Origin: an uncultured Candidatus Saccharibacteria bacterium | Lineage (GTDB): Bacteria; Patescibacteria; Saccharimonadia; Saccharimonadales; UBA4665 | Assembly (NCBI GenBank): GCA_946482285.1 | Contig: CAMLQK010000002.1 | Location: 62,001-126,000, forward strand | DNA: 64,000 nt | Direction of reading: 5' to 3' | Part shown: piece by piece, positions 1,680-47,143 of the stretch | Numbering within the stretch: the first letter of the stretch is position 1 | How the letters are laid out: each line of letters opens with the position of its first letter | Translations under genes and position numbers: made by a program | Notes under the pieces: generated by a model | What the model was told of the DNA's origin: nothing | The model's database searches: none | The model's input: only the letters and a program-made list of their open reading frames with translations

Positions 1680-2588
1680 TTAGTAGGGTGTTTCAGTACG
1701 CAAAAAACTAATCGGGGATGCCGCTTGGTACATGACCTCCATCACACGCTTCCCATATTGCTGCCAAGCAGGGGAGTCAAAGTCGCTTGGTAGCATATGT
1801 TTTTCAGACTGAACCCCTAGCTGGCCCAAGCGGTACACAGAAAGCTCATGCCACTTTCCCAGCATGACTGGCACAGATACGTTCTCATCCAACTTGCCTG
1901 CGCTATCAAGACGGTACAACCATCGCCCCAGCTGACCCATAAGCATCCACTGCCGATGGGACTGGTAAGTACGCTCGGCAATAATTCTTGTAGCATTGCG
2001 GACCCCTGGATCCAGCGAAATATCAGCAGTTGCCTGGGAATATATATCCCACAACTTGCTCATCTCCACGTAAAGCTCTGATGTGTCAGCAACTGGATTC
2101 TGGCATGCAAGCAGAGTTTTATTGCGGCTCCACAACCATTGGAACTGCGCAGCCTGGAAATCGTGACGGCCTGGTGCGCTTTCGACGTCAACCATAATAG
2201 CTCGAGTATCTTCTGGCAAGATGTTTGGATCGTTGTGACTAATAGCAGGGTCACGCGGCGTCCAAGCCGCCTCTATCCCGATATACGGATGCTGGTTAAG
2301 TAGCGGCTCATGTTGGTCAATAGCTGCCTCAAAGTCGGCAGCCGACCCATGGCCACCCAGCAAAAAATGCACACGCAGCTGGTCGGTGCGTCCCATGGAC
2401 TTGAGGTGGTCAAAACCATCACGAAGATTATCGTGGACACTTGTAGGAATGGCCTGGGGTAAAAGCGGCTCCTGAGCCAGCACGTCTCGGAACTGCACTC
2501 CCTCGCCAACCACGTCAAAGTACTGGCCGTCAAAAAACTGTTCTCGTATGTCGTACAGGTCGCGCGGACTAAGGTCATATGTTTTCAT
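1680..2588 (-). CDS. Conserved hypothetical protein, 302 aa
   Basis: Soluble protein, no signal peptide or membrane segment. It has an aspartate/histidine-rich stretch (FLLGGHGSAADFEAAIDQHEP, then HPYIGIEAAWTPRDPAISHNDP) and an acidic MVDVESAPGRHDF. The remainder is helical with many Trp and Tyr. I cannot assign a family; the His/Glu/Asp clusters would suit a metal-binding enzyme, but that is only a guess. The start ATG 2588 is preceded by GAGGAT. It is divergent from the EamA transporter gene 58 bp away. Confidence 0.75.
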   Translation of the reverse strand: MKTYDLSPRDLYDIREQFFDGQYFDVVGEGVQFRDVLAQEPLLPQAIPTSVHDNLRDGFDHLKSMGRTDQLRVHFLLGGHGSAADFEAAIDQHEPLLNQHPYIGIEAAWTPRDPAISHNDPNILPEDTRAIMVDVESAPGRHDFQAAQFQWLWSRNKTLLACQNPVADTSELYVEMSKLWDIYSQATADISLDPGVRNATRIIAERTYQSHRQWMLMGQLGRWLYRLDSAGKLDENVSVPVMLGKWHELSVYRLGQLGVQSEKHMLPSDFDSPAWQQYGKRVMEVMYQAASPISFLRTETPY

Positions 2589-2645
2589 ATCCTCACTATA
2601 ACGTACAAACCATTAAGCCAACATGAGATATGATATGCTTGAGCA

Positions 2646-3533
2646 ATGGACGCATTATTTGCAGCAATCGCACTTGGTTTAGCGGCAGCTATAGGCTGGG
2701 GCTTTTCGGGATTCTTTGATGCAAAAGCAGCCCGCACCGTACACCCGGTTGTCGCATCATTCCTTGTCAATGCAATAGTGGCCGTTGGGTATGCCATTAT
2801 ATATTTTTTGTGGCTACACCAGGGTTTTAGCTTTACAGACACCGGTGTGCTGTACGCGGCAAGTGGCGGTACAATCATTACCATAGGAGCGTTAGCATAT
2901 TTCAAAGGCCTGCATGCCGGGCCAATAAGCTTAGTATCGCCCATGAGCAGTGCATATCCGCTGGTTACAACAGTGCTTGCTGTGGTATTTTTCGGTGCAA
3001 AGCTTACTGGATTACAGTTTGCAGCAATCGCGCTTATTATGTGCGGCGTGTTCGTCGTCACAGAATTGCTAGCGGTGGCCACTAAGCGCAAAACCTTTAG
3101 CAAAGGACCGGTACTGGGTGTTATCGCCGCCCTGTGCTGGGGTATCGGCTATGTTTTAGTGGGGCAGGGAGTTGCTCACGATGGCTGGCAACAAGCAACC
3201 TTGGTAGAATTTGCGGCCATGCTAGTTGCTTTTGGCTTGAGTGTCCCTTTTGTGACCCCATCTTCAGTTCTAAGACCCGCTGCAATATACGGTGCCTTCT
3301 GTAATAAATATGTGTTGCTTGCCGGGGGAATAGCGCTGGCCGCTGCTTTATCGTTCAATATTGGGCTGGCGCATGACAGTTCTTCTGGCGCTGTTGTCGC
3401 AACAATGTCATCGTTTTACCCCGTCCTTACGGTACTGCTAGCATCGCGCCATTTTAACGAAACTGTTCAAAAAGTACAGTTTGCCGGAGCAATCGCCAGC
3501 ATTACTGGTGTTATCTTGCTTGGATTTTCCTGA
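2646..3533 (+). CDS. EamA/DMT-family permease
   Basis: 295 residues with about ten evenly spaced hydrophobic helices in two halves, the arrangement of drug/metabolite transporters of the EamA family. Typical features include IGWGFSGFFDAKAAR in helix 1, an LAYFKGLHAGPISLVSPMSSAYPLVTTVLA stretch in the first half and its counterpart FNIGLAHDSSSGAVVATMSSFYPVLTVLLASRHF in the second. Substrate cannot be read from sequence; amino acids, nucleosides or drugs are known for the family. The start is ATG 2646, with a -10-like TATGAT shortly upstream, so the leader is very short. It is a single-gene unit. Confidence 0.88.
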   Translation: MDALFAAIALGLAAAIGWGFSGFFDAKAARTVHPVVASFLVNAIVAVGYAIIYFLWLHQGFSFTDTGVLYAASGGTIITIGALAYFKGLHAGPISLVSPMSSAYPLVTTVLAVVFFGAKLTGLQFAAIALIMCGVFVVTELLAVATKRKTFSKGPVLGVIAALCWGIGYVLVGQGVAHDGWQQATLVEFAAMLVAFGLSVPFVTPSSVLRPAAIYGAFCNKYVLLAGGIALAAALSFNIGLAHDSSSGAVVATMSSFYPVLTVLLASRHFNETVQKVQFAGAIASITGVILLGFS

Positions 3534-3584
3534 AACCGACCCAAAGAATGCTACACTGGAAGCATTAACGTAATGGGGGCACCA

Positions 3585-4145
3585 ATGAAAAAAATTCTGA
3601 TTCTAGCAATAATCACTGTGTTCAGTGTAGTTGGCATTTTGCCGGCCGCCTCGGCAAACGCCGCGACACCATACTGCGGCATAACCTGGGGAAGTCTGAG
3701 CAAAAGTGCCAACCCATACAGCACCAAGCAACTTATTGACGTCCGCACCGGGCGGCACAGCTGTTACGACCGTATTGTCCTGCAAATGAATGGTACGGCA
3801 GCCGGCTATGATGTGCGCTACGTAGACAATGTCTTTGTTGATGGTTCTGGCGAGCTCATTCCGCTCAACGGCGGCGCAAAGTTGCAAATCATCCTAAAAG
3901 CGCCAGCTTACGACCCATACACAGGCATGCCAACTTACAGTCCAATTATTGACTACGCAAACCCAGCAAAACACCTCACACTGCCGGGAGTAAACCTAAC
4001 CGGCTACACAACTTTCCGCGACGCCCGTTTTGCAGGGACTTTCGAAGGTCAGACAACCATTGGCCTTGGTGTTCGCGCGCACTTGCCATTCCGAGTGTTC
4101 AAACTGGATAACCGTGTAGTTATTGACGTAGCTCACAAGTGGTAG
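3585..4145 (+). CDS. Secreted AMIN-like domain protein
   Basis: 186 residues: a signal peptide (MKKILILAIITVFSVVG, cleavage probably after SANA), then a domain with CGITWGSL, GRHSCYDRIVLQM, GYDVRYVDNVFVDGSGE and GGAKLQIILKAPAYDP. This pattern matches the AMIN-like domain of secreted actinobacterial proteins, thought to bind cell wall or polysaccharide. Two cysteines (in the CGITW and HSCYD segments) could form a disulfide. I prefer ATG 3585 because GGGGG lies 8 nt upstream; ATG 3573 is an alternative. Related proteins are best known from Actinobacteria, the usual hosts of Saccharibacteria. Confidence 0.8.
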   Translation: MKKILILAIITVFSVVGILPAASANAATPYCGITWGSLSKSANPYSTKQLIDVRTGRHSCYDRIVLQMNGTAAGYDVRYVDNVFVDGSGELIPLNGGAKLQIILKAPAYDPYTGMPTYSPIIDYANPAKHLTLPGVNLTGYTTFRDARFAGTFEGQTTIGLGVRAHLPFRVFKLDNRVVIDVAHKW

Positions 4146-4168
4146 AAGCATAAAACAGACAATTGCGA

Positions 4169-4195
4169 GCAGCCTGCCCATGCAGGCTGCTTTTT
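4169..4195 (+). terminator. Intrinsic terminator
   Basis: GCAGCCTGC and GCAGGCTGC form a strong stem with a short loop, followed by TTTTT. It ends the secreted AMIN-like gene and separates it from the convergent ABC-F gene. Confidence 0.85.
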
Positions 4196-4204
4196 ATCGC
4201 ATGC

Positions 4205-5866
4205 CTATTCGCCAACGGTGATAGTATCGCCCTTGATTTTATTGGCAAAGTAACTGTCGTGGGAAATGTAGATAATGGCACCTTGGTACTGCGCAAGTGC
4301 GTCCTCAAGCTCTTCTATACTAGGCAAGTCCAAGTGGTTCGTCGGCTCGTCTAAAATAAGTATCTGCGGATCGTTTGCCAGCATAGCTATAAGTTGGAAA
4401 CGGGCTTTTTGACCGCCGCTTAAGCGCGCAAGTGGCACATCGCCATCACTCATGGGGTTAAACAGATAGTCGCTTAACAGTTGCCGGATACGTTGTCCAG
4501 TTACCGGTATATCGTGCATGTCATGAACTTTCTCGACTGCTTCATTCAGCGTCATATCCAAATAAGACTCGTCCATTTCCTGCTGGTAATACCCAATGGC
4601 TAGTTCTTTCTGCACCGAAATACCACCTGTAAATCGTTGGCTTTGCAGCGGCTGGTCCTGCACCTTGGCCATCACAGCCTGTACTAGCGTCGTCTTACCA
4701 GCGCCGTTACGGCCATGCAATCGGACACGCTCACCTTCGTGCAAGGCAAAGTTAATATCTTCAAAGAGTGGGGTGGCATTGTAGCCTAAACTGAGCTTAT
4801 GCGCCTCGACCAGTAGCCGCCCGCGGTTGGTTTCCTCACGCTTGCGGGTCCGAATACGAATTGTCCGGGCTTTGTGCTTGTCGTATGCGGCAGCCATCTT
4901 GTCGTTCATGCTGTTCGCGGAATCCCGGTCTATCCAAAAGGATGGTTTTTCCATCTTTTGCAGTTCGGCCAGCTCTTTCGCTGCACGCTCCTCCTGACCC
5001 TTAAAGCGATGTATGGTGCCTGGGTCGCGGGCCTTTTCTTTCATGCGCCTGAACCGTATGACATCAGCCTTTAGGTTTTCTATACGACGCTGTGTAACCT
5101 CATATTCATTTACTTGCGATGTGATTTGGCTTTTGTTAGTCCTTAGGTATGCGTCGTAATTGCCGCGAAATGAAAACGCCTTGCCATCGCGGATCTCTAT
5201 AATACGGTCTACGTTATGAAGCACGTCGCGGTCATGAGTAATCACTACGATTGCTTCCTGACTAGCCGTGAACCACTTAATAAATGCCTCTTTGGCGATG
5301 TAGTCCATATGGTTGGTGGGTTCGTCAATGAGCGCGATGTCTGCGCGGGAACGCTGGACTTTTATGAGCTCTGCTAAGCGTTTCTGGCCACCGCTCAGCG
5401 ATCCCATCGTGGCATGCATTTTTGCCTCATCAAGCTGGTACTCCCAGAACATCTGGCGAATTTCATCTTCCAGCTGGTAATACCCTAACTGAGCAAACCG
5501 CTCCAGTGCGTCGGAGTACTGCTGCATTTTGTGGTTGCTGTCGCCCATATGCTCGGGATATGTGGCTATGATATGGCTCAGGCGAGCGTATTCCGGCAAA
5601 TCACCTTGTATATAATCAAGTACTGTCTTATCTTCCAAGCCATGGTGCTCCTGGCGGCTGGCAACCAGGATAGCATTGCGCTTGAGCGTTATTTCACCTT
5701 CGTAATCCGTGTCAGTGCCACTGATAAGGTTGAAAACTGTGGATTTGCCCGTACCGTTCCGTCCGATAAGGCCGACCTTTTCACCAGGTTGTACACTAAA
5801 CTCCAGCCCACTGTACAGGCTTTTGTTGCCAAATGACTTTTCGGTGACATTAACAGATAACAGCAT
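4205..5866 (-). CDS. ABC-F family ATPase
   Basis: 553 residues with two ABC ATPase domains and no membrane segments. Domain 1: Walker A GRNGTGKST, signature LSGGQKRL, Walker B IALIDEPTNHMD. Domain 2: GRNGAGKTT, LSGGQKARF, ILILDEPTNHLD. Between them is a long charged linker (roughly 245-335) that in ABC-F proteins inserts into the ribosomal E site. Family members act as translation factors or antibiotic-resistance ribosome-protection proteins; which applies here cannot be told. The start ATG 5866 matches the family's N-terminus (MLLSVNVTEKSFG). Single gene, transcribed divergently from the FtsH-like gene. Confidence 0.93.
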   Translation of the reverse strand: MLLSVNVTEKSFGNKSLYSGLEFSVQPGEKVGLIGRNGTGKSTVFNLISGTDTDYEGEITLKRNAILVASRQEHHGLEDKTVLDYIQGDLPEYARLSHIIATYPEHMGDSNHKMQQYSDALERFAQLGYYQLEDEIRQMFWEYQLDEAKMHATMGSLSGGQKRLAELIKVQRSRADIALIDEPTNHMDYIAKEAFIKWFTASQEAIVVITHDRDVLHNVDRIIEIRDGKAFSFRGNYDAYLRTNKSQITSQVNEYEVTQRRIENLKADVIRFRRMKEKARDPGTIHRFKGQEERAAKELAELQKMEKPSFWIDRDSANSMNDKMAAAYDKHKARTIRIRTRKREETNRGRLLVEAHKLSLGYNATPLFEDINFALHEGERVRLHGRNGAGKTTLVQAVMAKVQDQPLQSQRFTGGISVQKELAIGYYQQEMDESYLDMTLNEAVEKVHDMHDIPVTGQRIRQLLSDYLFNPMSDGDVPLARLSGGQKARFQLIAMLANDPQILILDEPTNHLDLPSIEELEDALAQYQGAIIYISHDSYFANKIKGDTITVGE

Positions 5867-5919
5867 AGAATATTATCATACCATTTATTGGGATAGCGTC
5901 AAAAAGCATGTGGGTAAGG

Positions 5920-5925
5920 TATACT
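5920..5925 (+). promoter_or_regulatory. -10 element for the FtsH-like gene
   Basis: TATACT matches the sigma-70 -10 consensus at five of six positions. It lies 44 bp before the GTG start; a small GCCT/AGGC hairpin lies in the short leader. No convincing -35 is visible. Confidence 0.5.
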
Positions 5926-5969
5926 AGATCTGCCTGTTTAGGCAACCTCCGACACGTTAGGGGAGAGGT

Positions 5970-7745
5970 GTGAAACACTTCTTCAAGAAAAAGTCCAGCC
6001 TGTGGTATGTGCTGGGCGCTGTTGTGGCCATCGGCCTACTGGCCTGGGTGCTGTTGCTGCCCGATAAAACCGTCGATAAGCTTGGGCAATCCAAGCTCAT
6101 GGACAAGACAGGGCAGCACCTTGTCGCCAAAACGGAGCTGAAGACAGACGAGGGTATCGCAGTCGTCACGCTCAAAAGCGGCAAAACGTATGAGACAACG
6201 TACGCCGCAAGCTTCGAGGACGAGCTGATAAAGGCGTTCGAGAAAGAAGGTGTCAGCTACAAGGTCACCAAGGACTCAAGCAACAAGCTCTTCGGCGTCC
6301 TGATCGGGCTGCTGCCGCTGGTGCTGCTGATAGGTGTCGCATACTTCATACTCATCAAGGGTGGAAGTATGCGGATGAAGGGCTACGCCAGCAATCAAGA
6401 TTTTGCCGCCCAGAGGCCCATGGTCCGCTTTGTCGACGTCATGGGTGCCGATGAAGCCATCGAGGATCTGCAGCCAACCGTTAAAGCGCTCAAGGATCCG
6501 GACAACTACAACGGCCCACCCATCATCCAGGGCATCATGCTGCATGGGCCAACGGGTACCGGCAAGACACTGCTGGCCAAGGCTATCGCGGGTGAGGCAG
6601 GCACCCTGTTCTACCACCTGAGCGGCCCGAGCGTCACCGGTATGTTCGTGAACCAGAGCGCCATGCTGGTACGCAACTTCTTCGACACGATCAAAAAGGA
6701 TCTGGCCAAGCGCAACACCCGCACGGCCGTGGTCTTTGTTGACGAATTCGAAGGCCTGGCACCCAAGCGGCGGCATGGCACAGCCGGCGAGCAAGAGCGG
6801 GCGGTAGTAGTAGACCAGCTGCTGTATGAGTTGAGCGAGCTGTTCGACAACTATCCCTTCGTGGTTTTCGTAGTCGCCACGAACCTGCTGGAACTGGTCG
6901 ACGACGCCATTGCCCGCAGCGGAAGGCTCGGCAGGAAGATCGCCATGCCCAACCCGGACATCCTGGCACGGACCAAAATCCTTGGGCTCAATGCCAAGGA
7001 TATAGAGACCGAAGAAGATGCCGACCTTGGGGCCATAGCCGCCATGACCGACGGCATGTCCGGCGCTGACATGCGCGAAGTCGTCCAGGAGGCCCGACGC
7101 GTCGCATATGCCGACGGGGAACGTACCGCGGTAGCGACTAGCGACTTGCGTGCGGCCGTCATCCGCACCGCGATGGGTGTTCCGCGAAAGTCGGCGCAAA
7201 TCCACCCCAAGGACCGTGCCGTCACTGCTATACATGAGAGCGGCCACACCCTGGCGGCCCTCAAAAGTCCGTACTGTCAGTTCCAGCACGTCACTATACT
7301 GCCCATTGGGCCGAGTGGCGGCAGCACCTGGAGCGCGGGCAACAACCAGCACCTAACCACCATGGCAATGCTGCTTGACAGGGTCGTGATGCTCCTCAGC
7401 GGCCTAGCCGCCGAAGAGCTGCTGAACCCAGATGGGGAGCCAAGCGCGGGCGCATCCAGCGACCTACAAAGCGCCACCGAGCTCGCCGTTAGCATTGTGT
7501 GTCAGACCTCGCTCGGCGGCATCATGCAGACAATCGACCCCCAGACCTGGGTGCACCACCCGATGGCCGGGGAGGTTAACGAAGTCGTCAATGACGTGCT
7601 AACAACCGCCAAAAAGGCCGCAGACCTGCTGATGCGTGAGCACCAGGCCTTCCTGCAGGCGCTCATCGGCATGCTCGACGAAGCCGACTCCCTGGACCGC
7701 GAACAGGTCGTGGCCCTATACGCGAAAATGGAGGCAACCGCCTAA
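5970..7745 (+). CDS. ftsH: Divergent FtsH-like membrane AAA+ zinc metalloprotease
   Basis: 591 residues in FtsH order: TM helix about 12-30, short extracytoplasmic region, TM helix about 107-130, AAA+ module (Walker A GPTGTGKT 193-200, Walker B VVFVDE 254-259, second region of homology ATNLLELVDDAIARSGRLGRKI) and peptidase domain with HESGH at 422-426 and the third-ligand Asp in GASSDLQSA near 498. All catalytic elements are present, but the sequence departs from consensus (T in Walker A, DEFEG for DEIDA). FtsH degrades membrane and misfolded proteins. Start GTG 5970 follows GGGGAGAGG. Strongly GC-rich, with a long rod-like hairpin in the 3' region. It may be an additional FtsH beside a housekeeping copy elsewhere. 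Confidence 0.88.
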   Translation: MKHFFKKKSSLWYVLGAVVAIGLLAWVLLLPDKTVDKLGQSKLMDKTGQHLVAKTELKTDEGIAVVTLKSGKTYETTYAASFEDELIKAFEKEGVSYKVTKDSSNKLFGVLIGLLPLVLLIGVAYFILIKGGSMRMKGYASNQDFAAQRPMVRFVDVMGADEAIEDLQPTVKALKDPDNYNGPPIIQGIMLHGPTGTGKTLLAKAIAGEAGTLFYHLSGPSVTGMFVNQSAMLVRNFFDTIKKDLAKRNTRTAVVFVDEFEGLAPKRRHGTAGEQERAVVVDQLLYELSELFDNYPFVVFVVATNLLELVDDAIARSGRLGRKIAMPNPDILARTKILGLNAKDIETEEDADLGAIAAMTDGMSGADMREVVQEARRVAYADGERTAVATSDLRAAVIRTAMGVPRKSAQIHPKDRAVTAIHESGHTLAALKSPYCQFQHVTILPIGPSGGSTWSAGNNQHLTTMAMLLDRVVMLLSGLAAEELLNPDGEPSAGASSDLQSATELAVSIVCQTSLGGIMQTIDPQTWVHHPMAGEVNEVVNDVLTTAKKAADLLMREHQAFLQALIGMLDEADSLDREQVVALYAKMEATA

Positions 7746-7920: not shown

Positions 7921-9189
7921 CTAGAATGGGCGGGCAATTTCCGTACTACCTAAGTCCTGGGCAATACGCAACAGTTCGTTGTACTTAGCGATGCGGTCGG
8001 AACGGCTAAACGAACCGGTCTTAATCTGGCCGGTGTTCAGACCCACGGCCAAATGGGCAATCGTGGTGTCTTCGGTCTCACCGGACCGGTGGCTCATAAC
8101 AGTGTTCCAGCCAGCTTTTTGCGCCATTTGCACAGCCCGGATAGTTTCTGTCAGGCTACCAATTTGGTTTGGCTTGATCAAGATAGCATTTGCGGCTTTT
8201 TCGTTAATAGCTTTTTCCAGCAATGCGGTGTTTGTTACCAACAAATCGTCGCCAACAAGCTGTGTGCTGTCGCCCATTGCTGCCGTCAAGGCCTTCCAGC
8301 CATTCCAGTCTTCTTCGCCTAAGCCATCTTCGATAGAAATGAGCGGGAATTTTTGGGCCAGGTCTTGGTAAAAAGCAATCAGCTCTTCGCTGGTAAAGGC
8401 TTTTCCTTCGCGGGCGAAGTTGTATGTGTCGCCCTCTACAAGTTCACTGGAAGCAACATCAAGCGCCAGCTTAACATCTCCACCCATGCGATAACCGGCT
8501 TTCTCTACTGCTTCGGTTATAAGCTCAAGCGCCTCAGCGGAACCGCCGCTAACGGATGGAGCATAACCGCCCTCATCACCAACAGTGGTTGCATAATTTT
8601 TTGCCTTGAGTACCTTGCCAAGAGCATGATAGATCTCACTTGCCATCTGCATTGCATGAGCAAAGTCGGTCGCGCCAACTGGCATAATCATAAACTCTTG
8701 AATATCCGTAGAGCCCTCGGCATGCTTTCCGCCGTTTAAGATGTTAAGCATCGGCAGGGGAAGCGTGAATGTGCTGTTGCCCGTCAGCTCACCGATGTAG
8801 CGGTACAACGGCTTGCCCTGGGACGCCGCAGCTGCCTTGGCGAGCGCCAATGATACCGCCAAGATGGCATTTGCACCCAATTTACTTTTGTTTTCGGTGC
8901 CGTCTAACTCCAACATGCGATTGTCCAGGCCAAACTGATCTTCGACATCTTGGCCAACCAGGGAAGGGGCAATAATGGTAACGATGTTATCTACTGCCTT
9001 TTCTACGCCCTTGCCATTAAACTTACTGCCACCGTCGCGAAGTTCCAGAGCTTCGCCTGCACCAGTTGAGGCGCCGGATGGGACGGCTGCGCGGCCAACA
9101 ACGCCATTTTCGAGCGTCACAACACACTCGACGGTAGGGAATCCGCGAGAGTCAAAAATCTGCAATGCAGAAATACTTTGAATTTTCAT
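7921..9189 (-). CDS. eno: Enolase
   Basis: 422 residues, usual length for bacterial enolase. It converts 2-phosphoglycerate to phosphoenolpyruvate in the cytoplasm. Hallmarks are present: N-terminal [42 protein letters not shown], the metal ligands in [20 protein letters not shown] and [10 protein letters not shown], the catalytic Lys in [12 protein letters not shown], and the enolase signature followed by [22 protein letters not shown] 9189 is preceded by GGAGGC. It is divergent from the dehydrogenase-phosphoglycerate mutase pair, placing three consecutive lower-glycolysis/fermentation functions together. Confidence 0.98.
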
Positions 9190-9215
9190 AGTGATGCCTC
9201 CTATAATGCATACTT

Positions 9216-10220
9216 ATGGCTTTCGTAACAATCTATAATCCCAACCAATCCGAACAACAAATATATGCAGATCTTTTTGAGGGTACAGACCATCGGTATG
9301 AGTTCGCAAGCGGACCCATTAACACCAAGAATCTTAACCCCGATACCGAAGTAATTGCAATATTTGTTACCGATAAAATAACCCGCGACATCATAGAAGG
9401 GTTGCCAAAATTACAGCTAATCGCCACCCAATCAACCGGTTATGACCACATAGATTTGCAGGCCGCCAAAGACCATGGCGTTACGGTTGTGACTGTTCCG
9501 GCATATGGTGAGCAAACCGTTGCGGAATATACATTCGCCCTCCTTCTGGCACTATCCCGCAAGATACCTGGCGGAGCGCATACGGCAGCACATGGAATTA
9601 CCCCCGACTACGACAAAATCTGCGGTTTTGACTTGCAGGGCAAAACCATCGGGCTAGTAGGCACTGGGCGTATTGGCCAGCACACCGCCAAAATCGCCAA
9701 GGGATTTGGCATGGAAGTAATTGCATACGACCCCTATCCCAACCAACGCATGGCAGAAGAAATTGGGCTCCATTATGTCACGCTTGCTGAGCTAGCCGTT
9801 GCAAGCGATGTCATCTCGTTGCATGCCCCAGCCACACCACAAACCCGCCACATAGTTGACAACACATTCCTGGCAAGCGTAAAATCCAGTGCTGTACTGA
9901 TCAATACTGCCCGAGGTGAATTAGTAGACTCCGCAGCGCTGTTGGCAGCTTTGCAGGCAGGACGGATTGCTGGAGCTGGCCTGGATGTACTGGAGCACGA
10001 AGAATTACTTGGCTCCGATCTCGGCACGGTCATCAAAAGTGATAGTCAACACGCAAGTGCAGCACGGATAATTATGCAACTTATACGTACACCAAATGTC
10101 ATTATTACTCCTCACAACGGCTTTAATACACTCGAAGCCCGAATGCGAATAAAGCAAACGACTGTACAAAATATTATTGGTTTTTATAATGGCGAAACGC
10201 CGAACAAAATAGAGGTTTGA
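9216..10220 (+). CDS. ldhA: D-2-hydroxyacid dehydrogenase, probably D-lactate dehydrogenase
   Basis: 334 residues. NAD-binding motif GLVGTGRIGQHTAK with the acidic residue in VIAYDPYPN, substrate Arg in INTARGELVDSAALL, the Glu in GLDVLEHEELLGSD and the catalytic His in ITPHNGFNT. Long tail features (SDSQHASAARIIMQLIRTPNVIITPHN) resemble fermentative D-lactate dehydrogenases. It would reduce pyruvate to D-lactate and regenerate NAD+, which suits a fermentative organism. It ends three bases before the start of the phosphoglycerate mutase gene, so the two are probably co-transcribed. Other 2-hydroxyacids remain possible substrates. Confidence 0.88.
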   Translation: MAFVTIYNPNQSEQQIYADLFEGTDHRYEFASGPINTKNLNPDTEVIAIFVTDKITRDIIEGLPKLQLIATQSTGYDHIDLQAAKDHGVTVVTVPAYGEQTVAEYTFALLLALSRKIPGGAHTAAHGITPDYDKICGFDLQGKTIGLVGTGRIGQHTAKIAKGFGMEVIAYDPYPNQRMAEEIGLHYVTLAELAVASDVISLHAPATPQTRHIVDNTFLASVKSSAVLINTARGELVDSAALLAALQAGRIAGAGLDVLEHEELLGSDLGTVIKSDSQHASAARIIMQLIRTPNVIITPHNGFNTLEARMRIKQTTVQNIIGFYNGETPNKIEV

Positions 10221-10222
10221 AT

Positions 10223-10861
10223 ATGAGCATGGGACAACTTTTAATTACCCGCCACTGCGAATCCGAATGGAACGCGCTCGGCAAATGGACCGGCACAACA
10301 GATGTCCATTTGAGCGAAAACGGCTTTAAGCAGGCAGGCCAAGTAGGTGAAGCAATCAAGGGTATTTCTATTGACCACGCCTTCTGCTCGCAGCAAATCC
10401 GCACATTGGAAACATTGGAAAATATCTTGGATGGTGCCCAGCAAGTAGAGGTCCCATACCAGCGTGTTGCCGACATTAATGAGCGTGATTACGGTGATTA
10501 TACGGGCATGAACAAGTGGGAAGTACGCGACAAAGTAGGCGAAGAAGAATTTAACGCCATCCGCCGCAATTGGGACCACGCTGTACCGAATGGCGAAACC
10601 CTCAAGATGGTATACGAACGTGCTGTGCCTTTTTACCGCCAAGTTATCGTACCGCTTCTTAAGGAAGGTAAAACTGTTCTGATGGTTGCCCATGGCAACT
10701 CAATCCGTGCACTTATCAAGTACATGGAAGCTGTTGACGACGAAGCCATCAAGGATGTCGAAATGCCATTTGGAACCGTACTTGACTACCAGGTCGATGA
10801 CGATGGCAAGATGCTACAACGCTATGACATCAAAATTGATATCATAGCCCCGCACGCGTAA
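10223..10861 (+). CDS. gpmA: 2,3-bisphosphoglycerate-dependent phosphoglycerate mutase with RHC motif
   Basis: 212 residues of the histidine phosphatase superfamily. The catalytic region reads LITRHCESEWN (His11 the phosphate acceptor), where nearly all members have RHG; here the Gly codon GGC is TGC (Cys12). Further hallmarks are LGKWTGTTDVHLSENG, FCSQQIRTLET, ERDYGDYTGMNKWE, VPNGETLKMVYERAVPFY and the second catalytic His in MVAHGNSIRALIKYME, all typical of dPGM. It interconverts 3- and 2-phosphoglycerate upstream of enolase. Start ATG 10223 has AGAGG 7 nt upstream, inside the previous gene. Its 3' end overlaps the convergent desaturase gene by 20 bp. Confidence 0.92.
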   Translation: MSMGQLLITRHCESEWNALGKWTGTTDVHLSENGFKQAGQVGEAIKGISIDHAFCSQQIRTLETLENILDGAQQVEVPYQRVADINERDYGDYTGMNKWEVRDKVGEEEFNAIRRNWDHAVPNGETLKMVYERAVPFYRQVIVPLLKEGKTVLMVAHGNSIRALIKYMEAVDDEAIKDVEMPFGTVLDYQVDDDGKMLQRYDIKIDIIAPHA

Positions 10862-11771
10862 CCAGCGCGCCCAAGCCACGTTGATATCGGTGAATTCGTG
10901 CGCGAGCTTTTTCGCCAGCCTCGCTTAAGCTAGGCAAGTCGTCAATTGCCAGTGCTTTAAGTGTTGGATTGACAACCTTTTCCAGGTGCAGGCGAGTCCC
11001 GTATACTCCGATTTCTTCAACAGTCCGAGATCGTTCCTGGAAATTGGGGATACCTTCTTTACCTGGCATAGCAAAGTGGCGAAGCTGATAATCCAACGCT
11101 TGTAAGCCGACCGTTGGATCTACATCTAACACCGCTTTCAGAGCCCCTGTATAGAATGCGCAGTGATGCTGTTCATCCTTAGCAACCCTGCCCATTGCCC
11201 GCTGACCTCCGTATTCTTTATCGAGAAAGGGAATTGTACCGCGGTGCGAAACAGCAGTTGCTAACTCCTGTAAGCTGGCATAGGCAAACAATTCGACCGC
11301 TGTAGTAGCATGAGGAGATTCACCGCGGAGCATTTGTTCGTCACGTTCATACTTCATCTGCTGAGGATCAAGCGCACGGGTAACACGAGCCCAGTTTGCT
11401 ATTAAATCAGCATGCTGGGCCTCCTCTTTTGTCCATATTCGCGTCCATTCTTTGAGCGGGTGGCCAGCCGGTGCGTGGCTATTGATTTCTGCAAAATACA
11501 GCGGCAAATTATCTTCGGTCGCCAGATTGATATAAAGCGCGTCACGATATCTGTCATCCAATGGGTAGTCATCCGGAGTCCATGGCTGGCCATCACCGAT
11601 ACCACGATATGACGCATATGTCCGGCCAAGGTGGTATGGAATGTAATCGGTTGGGTCCCAGTCTGTAGTAGATGCCTTGTGAACTTCTATTAAATCGGTG
11701 ACAGGCTTTGCAATATCGTCTAATATCTGTTGCTCGCGTTCTACGCTAAATAGTCGCTTTTCTTCTGGCAT
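10842..11771 (-). CDS. Acyl-ACP desaturase (ferritin-like di-iron)
   Basis: 309 residues, all helical. Di-iron ligands are visible: Glu in ATEDNLPLYFAEI, EEAQH (WTKEEAQHADLI), Glu in FAYASLQELATAVSH and DEQHH (RVAKDEQHHCAFY). These are the motifs of soluble plant/actinobacterial acyl-ACP desaturases (DesA1/2-like), which introduce a double bond into acyl-ACP using ferredoxin and O2. In an organism expected to take lipids from a host it may act on salvaged acyl chains; substrate is uncertain. ATG 11771 is preceded by AGGAG. It overlaps gpmA tail to tail. Confidence 0.85.
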   Translation of the reverse strand: MPEEKRLFSVEREQQILDDIAKPVTDLIEVHKASTTDWDPTDYIPYHLGRTYASYRGIGDGQPWTPDDYPLDDRYRDALYINLATEDNLPLYFAEINSHAPAGHPLKEWTRIWTKEEAQHADLIANWARVTRALDPQQMKYERDEQMLRGESPHATTAVELFAYASLQELATAVSHRGTIPFLDKEYGGQRAMGRVAKDEQHHCAFYTGALKAVLDVDPTVGLQALDYQLRHFAMPGKEGIPNFQERSRTVEEIGVYGTRLHLEKVVNPTLKALAIDDLPSLSEAGEKARARIHRYQRGLGALVTRAGL

Positions 11772-34171: not shown

Positions 34172-34496
34172 AGATGCTCCTAGCATGCGGCTACATCTGG
34201 CTACCAGTAAAGATGCAGCCTTAATAAACCGCATCTTACTATTGTTGCTGATTGAGTGGCGTAGGGAAGAGAGCCTCTAGAAAACACAGAACCCGTCGCC
34301 AGTGAGCGTTGTTGAAGCGCCCCATGCAAGTTTCCAAGCATGACGTACTAGGCCTGACAACGGGATCAGTATCCTAGTACGATTTCAAACCATACCAGAG
34401 CAATTCGCATCTACATTACCGTGGGTTAGGTTAACCAAATTATTGCCCATTTTTTGGGCTCGGCCGCATTTTACGCTACGTTGCCTCGCATTGCAA
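34172..34496. other. Structured non-coding interval
   Basis: No plausible gene. Between 34280 and 34381 several inverted repeats lie close together: CATGC/GCATG (34323-34342) and CGTACTAGG/CCTAGTACG (34344-34381) with an inner CTGA/TCAG. Nearer the 34497 gene is a GCCC/GGGC hairpin with an A/T-rich loop. It lies downstream of the minus-strand gene ending at 34497 and upstream of the zinc-ribbon gene. Could be a leader or small RNA; direction unknown. Confidence 0.45.
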
Positions 34497-43568: not shown

Positions 43569-43600
43569 AAAGGCGGCTGGACATAAACTGTCCGCCGCCT
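43569..43600 (+). terminator. Stem-loop terminator
   Basis: GGCGGC and GGACA pair with TGTCC and GCCGCC in one continuous hairpin, loop TAAAC. Its T-tract is weak (TTACG). Confidence 0.65.
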
Positions 43601-43641
43601 TACGTTGCAGCGCTATAGCTAAAATGATATAACTATTTCAT

Positions 43642-43669
43642 AAGTCAGCATGAGCTGGCTTTGTTTTTT
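43642..43669 (+). terminator. Intrinsic terminator upstream of the ubiquitin-like operon
   Basis: GTCAGC, loop ATGA, GCTGGC (one G-T pair), then TTTGTTTTTTC. It insulates the E2-like operon from the glycosidase gene. Confidence 0.75.
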
Positions 43670-43699
43670 CACAGTCAACCGATGATGATCCTTTTGGGA

Positions 43700-43763
43700 G
43701 TGACTTGCAGGATTCTGGCACAGAGCCGACAACACGTCGTCTGTGTCCCAGAATCCTCGTCAC
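43700..43763 (+). other. Long stem-loop in the leader of the ubiquitin-like operon
   Basis: Stacked helices GTGAC/GTCAC, AGGATTCTGG/CCAGAATCCT, CACAGA/TCTGTG and CGAC/GTCG in one rod. It ends 21 bp before the first start codon, just ahead of the Shine-Dalgarno GGAAGGAAG. Confidence 0.85.
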
Positions 43764-43784
43764 CAACCGGAAGGAAGCCCCACC

Positions 43785-45206
43785 ATGACAGGCCGCACAC
43801 GGCGCGTCTGGAACAGGGCCTACGAGCTCCTGACCAATAACGTCGCCGTCAACTTCGTCGCTGGCGTAATCAGGGTCATCAAGGCGATCGCCAAGGTGAT
43901 AAAGAACCGGCCCCGCCGGGCGCTGACTAAACGCGACACACCGCTGACCGTCAAAGACCTCTGGAGCCGCTACCTCAAGGAAAACCCGCGGCTCAAGTGG
44001 ACGCTCGCATTGCTTATGGTGATGTGGGCAGGCTGGATCCCGGGCGTTTTCATTTTCCCGGACAACAAGCCGTACAACGCCGCCGCTGATGCCCGAGGGA
44101 ATCTCGTGCAGATGTTCGAGCTAGAGGCAACTCCGCCAGCCGAACGGCCTAAGGTCCGCAAGAAATTGGCGGATGCGTTGCTCAATCTGCAAGAGGCAGG
44201 CATTGGCAACAAGATGAACGATGCCGCCCAGGGCGAGCTCAAGGATGTCGTAATCGGAAAGGTCCGACAGACCCGCGAAACCGGACAGCCCTTGCAGCTC
44301 GACTCTTCGCACCGAGGCCTCAGCTCGTCAGTGGAAATTCCGCTCAGCTACTTGGCCGTGTTGCCATTCGCAACCATCACTCTCCTGGGGTGGCGCTACC
44401 TCGACCGCTGCAAGCTACAAGCCGAGCGGGCAATCGACCTACCGTGGAAACGCGGCTGGCCGTTCGTGTTCGTGGCGCTATGCTTCTGGGTCCTCGTCCC
44501 GGCCATGCTCGTGAGCCTCGCCAGGCAATACCGGGCCAGCAAACGCACCAGCAAAGCGGATGCTGCCAAGGAAGTCAAAGAGCAGACGTACACCTTCAAC
44601 CATGACCCGGACGCTGCCCGAAAGCTTTACTTCGAGCTCCGATCCGGCAAATGGCAAGATTACGTCCGCGACAGGCTCGCCCAGATCGAGCAAGATATTA
44701 AGTTGCTGGTCCAGAACATCCTCAGGGAACAGGCACAGCGCAATGCTCTGATGGGTGAGCAGGAGCGTCTACAAGGCGTAGAAGCGAGCCACGACCCGGC
44801 AACCACAGAAGAACTGACAGAGGAGTTCGATTACATCCTGAAGCACGAGGCCGTCCACGGCATTGCCGTTGACGGCTCTGACCTGCTCATCCTGGTCAAG
44901 GCCCGGTTCGCTCTCAACGGCGTGACCTACGACCTCGGCGACTGGGAAGTGCGGATCAGCCGTACTGGCTTCCGCACGCGCGAGCTTCGCACGGGCACAA
45001 AGGTAGACTGGCACTTCTGGGCACATCCGATCTACCGGCTGCCCGACGGCCAGTTTTGCTTCGGTGCCACGGCAGTTGAGATCAGTCTCAAAATCGCTCG
45101 CAACCAGCTAGCACAGGCAGCAGTTCTGGCAGCCGATTCTCTGTGCGCGATCAACGCGAAGGACTACCAGCACGTGCCAGTCGCGTTTAAGGTGGTTAGT
45201 GAGTGA
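43785..45206 (+). CDS. Membrane-anchored E2-like (UBC-fold) protein
   Basis: 473 residues from ATG 43785 (GGAAGGAAG upstream; a GTG 14 codons earlier is less likely because it falls in the leader stem). TM helices at about 72-91, 185-205 and 224-245, a charged helical region 285-345 likely to be a coiled coil, then a C-terminal E2-like domain: GDWEVRISRTGF, and AHPIYRLPDGQFCFGATAVEIS with candidate catalytic Cys425 in the HPx(n)GxxCxG pattern typical of bacterial E2 proteins, followed by helices. Family inference is by that motif and by its neighbours: JAMM, E1-like and ubiquitin-like genes follow in one operon. The membrane fusion is unusual; conjugation might target membrane proteins. Confidence 0.7.
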   Translation: MTGRTRRVWNRAYELLTNNVAVNFVAGVIRVIKAIAKVIKNRPRRALTKRDTPLTVKDLWSRYLKENPRLKWTLALLMVMWAGWIPGVFIFPDNKPYNAAADARGNLVQMFELEATPPAERPKVRKKLADALLNLQEAGIGNKMNDAAQGELKDVVIGKVRQTRETGQPLQLDSSHRGLSSSVEIPLSYLAVLPFATITLLGWRYLDRCKLQAERAIDLPWKRGWPFVFVALCFWVLVPAMLVSLARQYRASKRTSKADAAKEVKEQTYTFNHDPDAARKLYFELRSGKWQDYVRDRLAQIEQDIKLLVQNILREQAQRNALMGEQERLQGVEASHDPATTEELTEEFDYILKHEAVHGIAVDGSDLLILVKARFALNGVTYDLGDWEVRISRTGFRTRELRTGTKVDWHFWAHPIYRLPDGQFCFGATAVEISLKIARNQLAQAAVLAADSLCAINAKDYQHVPVAFKVVSE

Positions 45207-45796
45207 TGCTCATCCGGCGCAAACCGTACATCGGCCACCAACTCGTTGTATCTGCGCAAGCATTCGACGATATCCTGTGCTACACGACACTATGGCCGAA
45301 GGAGGTAGCAGGGTACGGGCTCATCCGGCGCGATGGCATGACCTTCTACCTGGACGAGGTGTTTATCCTCGACCAGGTAGTAAGCGGCTATCACACGACG
45401 GTCAGCCCCAAGGCTCTCCACCGCAAGATCGGGGAACTCACCCAGCAGAACCGGCGCGACCAATTGCGCTTCCACTGGCATTCGCACGTCAACTTCGAGG
45501 CGTACTTCTCGGCCACCGACGTCGCCAACATCCACGGATGGGGTGGCGAGTGGCTGGTGAGTCTGGTGCTAAACAAGCGGGGTGACATCGAGGTTCGCCT
45601 CGATGAGTTCTGCCACGGGCGCCACCACATCTGGCACGTCCGTTTGCTGCTCGCGCAAGACCACCGCAGTCACGCGGAACGCGTGCGATCAATCCTGCAC
45701 GTCAATGACGAGCTCGACCAGCGCGTCCGCGTAGGCAATCCCATCCTGAACACAGGCGGGCACCTGCTCAGCCTACTACGAAGGAGACTCATGTGA
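45203..45796 (+). CDS. JAB1/MPN (JAMM) metallopeptidase
   Basis: 197 residues. Complete JAMM site: Glu34 (WPKEVAGYGLI) and HxHx7SxxD as His93-x-His95, Ser103, Asp106 in WHSHVNFEAYFSATDVANIHG. JAMM proteases remove ubiquitin-like proteins from conjugates or trim their C-termini. As the partner ubiquitin-like protein already ends in Gly, deconjugation is the more likely role here. Its GTG start overlaps the TGA of the E2-like gene (GTGA) and its own TGA overlaps the next GTG, so the three are translationally coupled. Confidence 0.9.
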   Translation: MMLIRRKPYIGHQLVVSAQAFDDILCYTTLWPKEVAGYGLIRRDGMTFYLDEVFILDQVVSGYHTTVSPKALHRKIGELTQQNRRDQLRFHWHSHVNFEAYFSATDVANIHGWGGEWLVSLVLNKRGDIEVRLDEFCHGRHHIWHVRLLLAQDHRSHAERVRSILHVNDELDQRVRVGNPILNTGGHLLSLLRRRLM

Positions 45797-46512
45797 CCGA
45801 GTTCTTCGGCGACTACAGCAACCAGGGTCAGATTTTCGACCCGTCCAGCTTCCACTGGCCGGTCAATGTGATCGGACTTGGCAGCGCAGGCAGCGCGACC
45901 ACCCTGGCACTCCACAGTATGGGGGTCCGGAAGCTCGTGGGCTTCGACGACGACGTCGTGTCACCGCATAACGTCCCAGTACAGGTGCTGTACTCCAACA
46001 ACGACCTCACCGACCCGCCCACGACCAAGGTCGACGCGGTACAGCGATACCTGGCAGGCATGCCCATCGACAGCCAGCAGACGTTCACCGGCCACAACCG
46101 GCGAGTGACACGCGACAACCCGTTCGACCTGTTCGGTGTTGTCGTGATGACCGTGGACACCATGGCCGCCCGTCACGAAATCTGGGAGCTGATCCAGCGC
46201 CCAGAGACTCTGGTCAACGTGCCGTTGGTCATCGACACCCGCATGGATGGCGGCAGCTACCAGGTCCACACCATCAACCCCCAGGACCCGGACCACGTCA
46301 AGAAGTATCAGTCGTGGTTCTACACCGACGAAGAAGCCGACAACGAGGGCTACGGGCTCCGCGGCTATGTCGGTGTAACTTTCAGCTTGGCCGGCCGGGT
46401 GGCCAGCCATATCGCGGCGTTTAGCCGAGGGGAGGTATGTCCGACGTTCTACCAAGATCTGGTAGGCCCGCAGGTAACACCTACGGAACCGCCAGCCGAG
46501 AACGCCGGTTAA
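45793..46512 (+). CDS. ThiF/E1-like activating enzyme
   Basis: 239 residues. Nucleotide motif VIGLGSAGS (GxGxxG at 28-33), acidic LVGFDDDVVSPHNVPVQVLY, Lys79 in TKVDAV, and Asp122 in VVVMTVDTMAARHEI, equal to the adenylation residues of MoeB/ThiF. It would adenylate the C-terminal Gly of the 46555 protein. Only one cysteine is present (Cys216 in RGEVCPTFYQ), so no CxxC zinc site; Cys216 could be the thioester site, or the E2 Cys may attack the adenylate directly. AAGGAG is inside the end of the JAMM gene. Confidence 0.9.
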   Translation: MTEFFGDYSNQGQIFDPSSFHWPVNVIGLGSAGSATTLALHSMGVRKLVGFDDDVVSPHNVPVQVLYSNNDLTDPPTTKVDAVQRYLAGMPIDSQQTFTGHNRRVTRDNPFDLFGVVVMTVDTMAARHEIWELIQRPETLVNVPLVIDTRMDGGSYQVHTINPQDPDHVKKYQSWFYTDEEADNEGYGLRGYVGVTFSLAGRVASHIAAFSRGEVCPTFYQDLVGPQVTPTEPPAENAG

Positions 46513-46554
46513 GCCGCGACAAACAACACACGCTCACACACGAGGAGAAGCAAC

Positions 46555-46929
46555 ATGAGTGACAGCACCGTGTTCGGCAGCGATGGCGACAGTCCCGAAG
46601 ACAGCCCCCACCGCGCCGACTTCACCAAGCACCCCCAACAGGGTGGTGTGCAGCCCGTCCCCGAGGTCAACCTGACCGCCGCGACGGCCGTGCCCGCAGG
46701 CATGGTCCGCGTGGAGACTGCAGGAGGCAGCTACCTGGACTTCGACTTCAAGGCTGGTGCCGACGTCGCGTACTACACGCGGCAGGCAAGCATGAAGGTC
46801 GGCGGCGGTACCCAGCGTCTGTTCACCGGCCGCAGCGCCTCGATCAACGGTATGCAGGTCCCGGGCAAGCACAAGGTCAGGGACCAGGGCGTCGTCATCG
46901 TGGTAGCCCGGAGGCCGCACAACGGCTGA
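46555..46929 (+). CDS. Ubiquitin-like protein with C-terminal glycine
   Basis: 124 residues: disordered acidic/Pro-rich N-terminus of about 45, then a beta-grasp-like domain (MVRVETAGGSYLDFDFKAG, VAYYTRQASMKVGGGTQRLF, SINGMQVPGKHKVRDQGVVIVVARR) ending in PHNG. The exposed terminal Gly124 fits direct activation by the E1-like protein. Sequence identity to ubiquitin is not evident; identification rests on the predicted fold, end residue and operon position. AGGAG lies eight bases before ATG. Followed by a long stem-loop and a hammerhead-like motif. Confidence 0.78.
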   Translation: MSDSTVFGSDGDSPEDSPHRADFTKHPQQGGVQPVPEVNLTAATAVPAGMVRVETAGGSYLDFDFKAGADVAYYTRQASMKVGGGTQRLFTGRSASINGMQVPGKHKVRDQGVVIVVARRPHNG

Positions 46930-47006
46930 CAGCCGGCGCAGCCAACTATGAAAAACACAAAATCCGGGGCTGAATAATCACAGCAGCCCACGGTCGTGGG
47001 GCGGGT

Positions 47007-47059
47007 GTTCTGACGGACGAGAACCTGTCGCTTCCAAAGCGATACTCAACCGTCAGAAC
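47007..47059 (+). other. Stem-loop after the ubiquitin-like gene
   Basis: GTTCTGACGG pairs perfectly with CCGTCAGAAC; inside, TCGCT pairs with AGCGA. No T-tract. It lies 78 bp after the stop and just before the hammerhead-like motif. Confidence 0.8.
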
Positions 47060-47074
47060 CCCGTCACACGAAAA

Positions 47075-47143
47075 CGCACCTCCACAAATGGTGGCACATA
47101 CGCCACAAGTTGTGCCGATGAGCTGTAAACAGCGAAAGGCGCG
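47075..47143 (+). ncRNA. Hammerhead-ribozyme-like motif (U4C core), 3' region of the ubiquitin-like operon
   Basis: Type III layout: stem III CGCACC/GGCGCG with one A-C mismatch; U16.1 (47081) and C17 (47082); stem I CACAA/TTGTG extended by an internal GTGGC/GCCAC hairpin; core CCGATGA (47115-47121); stem II GCTG, loop TAAA, CAGC; GAAA (47134-47137). It shares CACCTCCACAAATG and AAGTTGTG with the canonical motif at 62564-62624, so the two are related. The C at position 4 and the mismatch may lower activity. It ends at the stop codon of the convergent gene. Confidence 0.62.

Follow-up and report, generated by a model that had tools for sequence, protein, structure and literature searches.

In this study, we show that four consecutive genes in the window, a 64,000-nucleotide stretch of contig CAMLQK010000002.1 from an uncultured Candidatus Saccharibacteria bacterium, encode an E2-like protein with predicted membrane segments, a JAMM/JAB isopeptidase, an E1-like ThiF-family protein and a ubiquitin-like modifier (Ubl). 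Our reading, to which we assign a probability of roughly two in three (0.68), is that they constitute a membrane-tethered ubiquitin-like conjugation cassette related to cassettes borne by phages. Good support for it comes from sequence, fold and conservation, which together indicate an E1, a membrane-fused E2, a JAB and a Ubl; the recurrence of the same four families in other genomes, together with the correlated distances of their proteins, is more than would be expected by chance. The preliminary description of the locus had recognized four consecutive genes with overlapping stop and start codons, and both observations hold: all four open reading frames (ORFs) are open on the + strand at the coordinates below, the same families recur as a cassette elsewhere, and a GTGA overlap lies at the E2/JAB and at the JAB/E1 junction. 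The Ubl gene (ORF4) starts 42 bases after the E1 gene and has a GGAG-type ribosome site. The features are as follows.

43689-43775, + strand: leader hairpin, from the folding of one sequence; no Rfam match here at the gathering cut-off.
43785-45206, + strand: membrane-fused E2-like protein (ORF1), 473 residues from the ATG.
44001-44519, + strand: hydrophobic segments at ORF1 residues 73-91, 183-201 and 227-245, by hydropathy alone.
44757-45203, + strand: UBC domain, by model and profile, with Cys425 (codon 45057-45059) within HPIYRLPDGQFCFG.
45203-45796, + strand: JAMM/JAB isopeptidase (Prok-JAB), by Pfam score, ligands and PDB profile match.
45793-46512, + strand: E1-like ThiF-family protein, 239 residues, by Pfam ThiF and PDB profile match.
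46555-46929, + strand: ubiquitin-like modifier, 124 residues, beta-grasp by profile, ending in Asn-Gly.

The proposal that the first gene encodes a membrane-fused E2 with a UBC fold is borne out by structure prediction of its C-terminal region, which gave the helix, four strands, loop and helices of the UBC topology (predicted local distance difference test, pLDDT, 86.3; predicted template modelling score 0.80), and by a profile of 36 UBC domains, which picked out UBE2L3 from the PDB (E 1.3e-4), the hP..G..C motif lining up between the two. Cys425, numbered from ATG 43785, is kept in 16 of the 16 aligned E2s, and YDxGD, R402 and Y417 are also conserved. The HP motif upstream of the cysteine is present in the window protein and in its relative P0002, yet in 2 of 15 Saccharimonadia domains; it is frequent in the viral relatives, the motif itself having been used to find those. 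Foldseek returned nothing at E 0.001 with the UBC model and no significant match with the full-length ORF1 model, which was poor (pLDDT 44.3), and a full-length E2 profile matched a designed membrane binder and coiled coils in the PDB. When ORF1 was searched among 5.8 billion proteins, a near-copy (P0001) and one relative (P0002, 50%) were found. Since both begin at the position of ATG 43785, this start is likelier than GTG 43743.

In addition to the three hydrophobic segments, ORF1 has a weaker one at residues 21-39, and a loop of about 90 residues separates segments 1 and 2. The charge pattern suggests that the UBC domain faces the cytoplasm (this analysis misplaced the third segment of the L103 relative), and the third segment may be re-entrant, so that the E2 domain would stay cytoplasmic. 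By hydropathy, membrane segments are present in the window E2, in P0002 and in 10 of 17 Saccharimonadia E2 relatives, the other seven having none. A membrane-integral E2, perhaps with one segment re-entrant, would also suit an enzyme that couples Ubl to a membrane lipid, from which the JAMM protease would cleave it, by analogy with Atg3 and LC3. We consider this improbable: JAMM enzymes cut isopeptides, and the seven relatives devoid of a membrane segment indicate that the chemistry does not need one. Atg3 itself is an E2-like enzyme that acts at the membrane (PMC10485044, from the excerpt available). As a separate observation, the E2s of L107 (7623-8945), L203 (6935-8446) and L205 (6218-7657) by eye contain two UBC-like halves each, one half lacking the FCF cysteine.

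The second and fourth genes conform to what had been proposed for them, namely a complete JAMM peptidase and a 124-residue beta-grasp protein with a free terminal glycine. The window JAB scores 29.8 bits with Pfam Prok-JAB (cut-off 25), its profile matches RPN11 (E 1.8e-6), residues E34, H93, S94, H95, S103 and D106 are all in place, and the JAMM ligands (Glu, His-x-His, Ser, Asp) are kept in 13 of 13 JABs. A Pfam scan of the window Ubl was blank; the two best PDB matches of the Ubl profile were the beta-grasp proteins PF1061 (E 2.4e-4) and SAMP2 (E 4.7e-4), from which a beta-grasp fold is predicted. The window Ubl ends in HNG. Asn-Gly closes the Ubl domain in 18 of 18 members (six Ubls were chosen by eye) and forms the very last residues in 16; most members would need no maturation because the glycine is encoded at the very end, and a protease would have to remove one further residue from the Ubls of L099 and L105.

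The third gene product had been described as a ThiF/E1-like protein with a single cysteine, Cys216. It is indeed of the ThiF family (Pfam ThiF 49.9 bits, cut-off 28.1; best PDB match of the E1 profile UBA3, E 5.5e-19) and this is its sole cysteine, but Cys216 is not the conserved E1 cysteine. In a 90-row E1 alignment, the conserved column holds Cys in 84 rows and is a gap in four: three short ORFs, and L159, in which the match runs over two frames. The remaining two rows have Ile (L168) and Tyr (the window; Tyr187, codon 46351-46353). The column of Cys216 is Cys in 2 of the 90 rows, and we rejected Cys216 as the E1 cysteine. Since Tyr187 stands where the relatives have Cys, the window copy may have a transfer step that is different or damaged, handing on the modifier in another manner or being impaired. 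It is possible, though we regard it as rather doubtful, that the family works as proposed here and that the window copy is impaired, its Ubl being adenylated and its E2 loaded poorly or not at all. Besides these two columns, the long terminal branch of the window E1 (1.63 versus a median of 0.58) is consistent with impairment. However, none of the four frames is interrupted, the window E1 retains every residue that is invariant in the alignment, and its identity to the nearest relative (0.36) equals that of JAB (0.36) and E2 (0.37); these conserved residues and matching identities give no sign of general decay. Moreover, P0004, the same E1, comprises two member sequences on five contigs.

The E1 also raises the question of a sulfur-carrier or cofactor pathway of the ThiS/MoaD kind in place of protein conjugation, as its best NCBIfam matches are ThiF and MoeB, and JAB-ThiS-sulfur gene clusters exist (PMC1779556, available excerpts). 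This explanation is highly improbable given that the aligned cassettes have an E2 with an invariant cysteine, that the E1 scores 46.6 bits against a ThiF cut-off of 275, and that no sulfur or cofactor gene was recognized by eye beside the cassettes among the ORFs listed.

The cassette recurs in Saccharimonadia. The assignment of the window to Saccharibacteria agrees with its DEAD-box helicase, which shares 61-70% identity with six sampled genomes of that group and 48-50% with three others; in the seven remaining genomes compared, five of them from other phyla and two from the phylum draw, identity was 43% at most. Searches covered 392 Saccharimonadia genomes and 379 genomes from the phylum, two evenly drawn subsets of larger groups with some genomes in common (G002 and G017 occur in both). 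The ORF1 profile matched 13 of the 392, and a profile of the C-terminal E2 domain matched 16 of the 392 and 2 of the 379; the latter profile matched 0 of 246 genomes of an actinobacterial class in a search that had no positive control. The window E1 and Ubl found themselves alone among the 5.8 billion proteins at the thresholds used, the identical proteins lying on contigs as long as 1.24 Mb. Alignment of ORF1 against genome contigs and viral contigs, and of the window E1 alone against viral contigs, found no relative; a separate set of 13 genomes gave no match; and in plasmids tblastn found no match for ORF1 or JAB and four weak partial matches for E1. The first 13 genomes hold 14 cassettes besides that of the window, two of them in L101. 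The order E2-JAB-E1-Ubl, for which a search in related genomes had been suggested, occurs in 12 of the 15 cassettes (window included); L098 and L100 have no JAB, and L105 has JAB-E1-Ubl-E2. Among three further genomes, the order is E2-JAB-E1-Ubl in L204 and E2-Ubl-JAB-E1 in L203 and L205. Over 12 complete cassettes, the four proteins have correlated distance matrices (Mantel r 0.44-0.83, permutation p <=0.002), as expected for co-inherited genes. Flanking genes differ between most loci by eye among the ORFs listed; L099 and L102 share a neighbourhood, and L101 and L106 adjoin topA. The two L101 cassettes (1723-5576 and 8874-11608) lie on either side of topA; the E2 of the second is soluble, and its E1 has two halves that both look ThiF-like.

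Outside Saccharimonadia, relatives are found mostly on viral contigs. IMG/VR yielded 73 loci, 4 with the E1 profile and 69 with the JAB profile; some of them are the same or near-identical contigs (L111, L120). JAB adjoins E1 in 71 of the 73, the other two contigs ending at or near JAB; the share of loci with both is biased upwards because an E1 or JAB pattern had served to find them. A Ubl match (E < 0.01) is present in 26 loci, an HP..CxG ORF, as counted by pattern, in 46, and both of these together with JAB and E1 in 17. Many of the viral E2s carry HPHxxxGxxCxG; two analyses (A7 and A8) used 22 and 21, respectively, of 35 viral domains. A weak hydrophobic segment occurs in one of the 46 viral E2s (hydropathy, one ORF per locus); membrane segments are essentially absent from the E2 relatives on phage contigs. 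One branch of the E1 tree (Shimodaira-Hasegawa-like approximate likelihood ratio test 99) unites all 17 Saccharimonadia rows, that of the window among them; viral L108 and L111 lie nearest to it. The tree came from a quick search in which five rows and duplicates were left out and in which L203-L205 are labelled PT though they are Saccharimonadia; because its root is arbitrary, it is compatible with transfer between Saccharimonadia and viruses in either direction. Of ten neighbours from five viral loci, nine match PHROGs, including the SbcC, SbcD, RNase H, RuvC, primase and ParB families; PADLOC matched two of ten neighbours.

The viral Ubl relative of L111 matches Pfam ThiS (4.8e-9) and the Ubl profile (1.5e-8); its gene (6885-7292) contains two tandem Ubl copies, each ending near GG, and two Pfam ThiS stretches. 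Against deposited phages, a viral E1 matched 79 records, mostly Flavobacterium and Bacteroides phages, and a viral JAB matched one; the full cassette is thus seen mainly in metagenomic phages. Among the matches listed (40 of 79), the phage E1s are mostly annotated as "thiamine biosynthesis protein" or unannotated, and the ThiF-like "thiamine biosynthesis protein" of Flavobacterium psychrophilum and gut phages may be an E1-family relative. No credible family was found for the window E2 or Ubl in Pfam, NCBIfam, PADLOC and PHROG scans, nor for five viral E2s against all Pfam, PHROGs and NCBIfam, so such cassettes are easily missed in annotation; Pfam gave no coherent family for 16 E2s and 14 Ubls.

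Under the membrane-tethered conjugation reading, E1 would adenylate the C-terminal glycine of Ubl, which would then move to Cys425 of E2. A coiled coil would hold the UBC domain at the cytoplasmic face of the membrane, where E2 could join Ubl to nearby amino groups, most likely those of membrane or membrane-associated proteins, and the JAMM protease would take it off again. The loop of about 90 residues would lie outside and could sense. Because the window E1 has no conserved cysteine, this copy may pass its Ubl from the adenylate straight to the E2 cysteine; alternatively, it may be impaired. As to the role, a part in conflicts with phages or mobile elements is likeliest, and this is the weakest step. 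A bolder version, which we hold to be unlikely, is a membrane-resident Ubl pathway of shared origin with the phage cassettes, in which an E2 with an outward sensing loop would mark membrane proteins or even lipids from inside and, the E1 cysteine step having been dropped in this species, would take Ubl directly from the adenylate.

Saccharibacteria have genomes of about 1 Mb and live as epibionts of other bacteria. If our reading is right, four genes suffice in such bacteria for a complete E1-E2-Ubl-protease pathway whose E2 sits in the membrane, and the counterparts in metagenomic phages are soluble. This would provide a compact system for studying the purpose of ubiquitin-type tagging in bacteria and phages, and would allow one to ask whether the E1 cysteine is dispensable and whether an E2 handles membrane substrates without an E3.

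The structured leader noted previously is supported by folding: 43600-43784 folds at -66 kcal/mol (z -5.3), better than 200 of 200 shuffles of this single sequence. The hairpin would pair a ribosome-site-like GGAAGGA upstream of the E2 gene, and translational control is possible. The cassette stretch has 61.0% guanine plus cytosine (GC) versus 49.8% in its flanks. We rejected the GC excess as proof of transfer, as it is +0.112 in the window but ranges from -0.002 to +0.090 at the other 13 loci. A mobile unit with terminal repeats was likewise rejected, since among 14 loci L095, L097 (terminator-like hairpins) and L105 (transfer RNA-like by eye) alone exceed all shuffles and the window does not. 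An exact 93-nucleotide direct repeat flanks the L095 cassette (5914-6006 and 9159-9251), as if it had moved or recombined there, and none such is found in the window. Elsewhere in the window, a LOOT RNA (RF03000) lies at 34304-34432 on the - strand (54.3 bits, gathering score 46.4), and an enolase gene at 7921-9189 is found in 3 of 12 sampled Saccharibacteria genomes (59-63% identity) and not in the other nine.

Prokaryotic E1-E2-JAB-Ubl operons were already predicted in 2006 (PMC1779556), and Bil is an experimentally tested case, with E1, E2, JAB and Ubl in a single operon (as reviewed in PMC11354881). The preliminary description had compared the set with Bil, and a kinship with Bil in particular was not upheld. 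BilB carries a CEHH motif; BilA, which BilC cleaves, contains two Ubl domains; and in the Bil E1 one adenylation half is inactive and the Cys domain spans 80 residues (PMC11354881). In contrast, the window set has one Ubl domain of a mostly pre-matured kind, a 239-residue E1 and a membrane-fused E2, and the CEHH motif (Cys, +6 Glu, +8 His, +13 His) is absent, V, I and A standing at +6, +8 and +13 after Cys425. We rejected Bil membership because the set lacks the motif, contains only one Ubl domain and has a small E1; with the PADLOC Bil models, E1 matched the BilD model weakly (17.2 bits, 4.1e-4, no cut-off printed) and the other three proteins had no Bil match. Operon type 6d of Iyer et al. 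2006, which we take to be PRTRC, was also considered. Type 6d resembles the window set in having Ubl, JAB, E1 and E2 as separate genes; its E2 has a His downstream and none upstream, and its JAB is extended at the N-terminus by an extra domain (PMC1779556). PRTRC membership was rejected on the NCBIfam scores (PRTRC_A 12.5 bits versus 101.8; PRTRC_ThiF 23.1 versus 144.75), and the PRTRC models did not match ORF1 or ORF4. A membrane-built E2 is not described in the available excerpts of PMC1779556 and PMC11354881, and searches of an open-licence library listed no description of this family. Unlike the E2/Cap2 of type II cyclic-oligonucleotide-based anti-phage signalling systems (CBASS), the window E1 is not fused to E2, and the four genes include no nucleotidyltransferase. 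Among eukaryotic E2s, those of the UBE2J type are membrane-bound UBC domains. The window E2 resembles UBE2J and Atg3 as a UBC domain that would operate at a membrane, and differs from both in its predicted anchor, which sits at the N-terminus, crosses the membrane more than once and comes with a coiled coil and a long loop on the outside.

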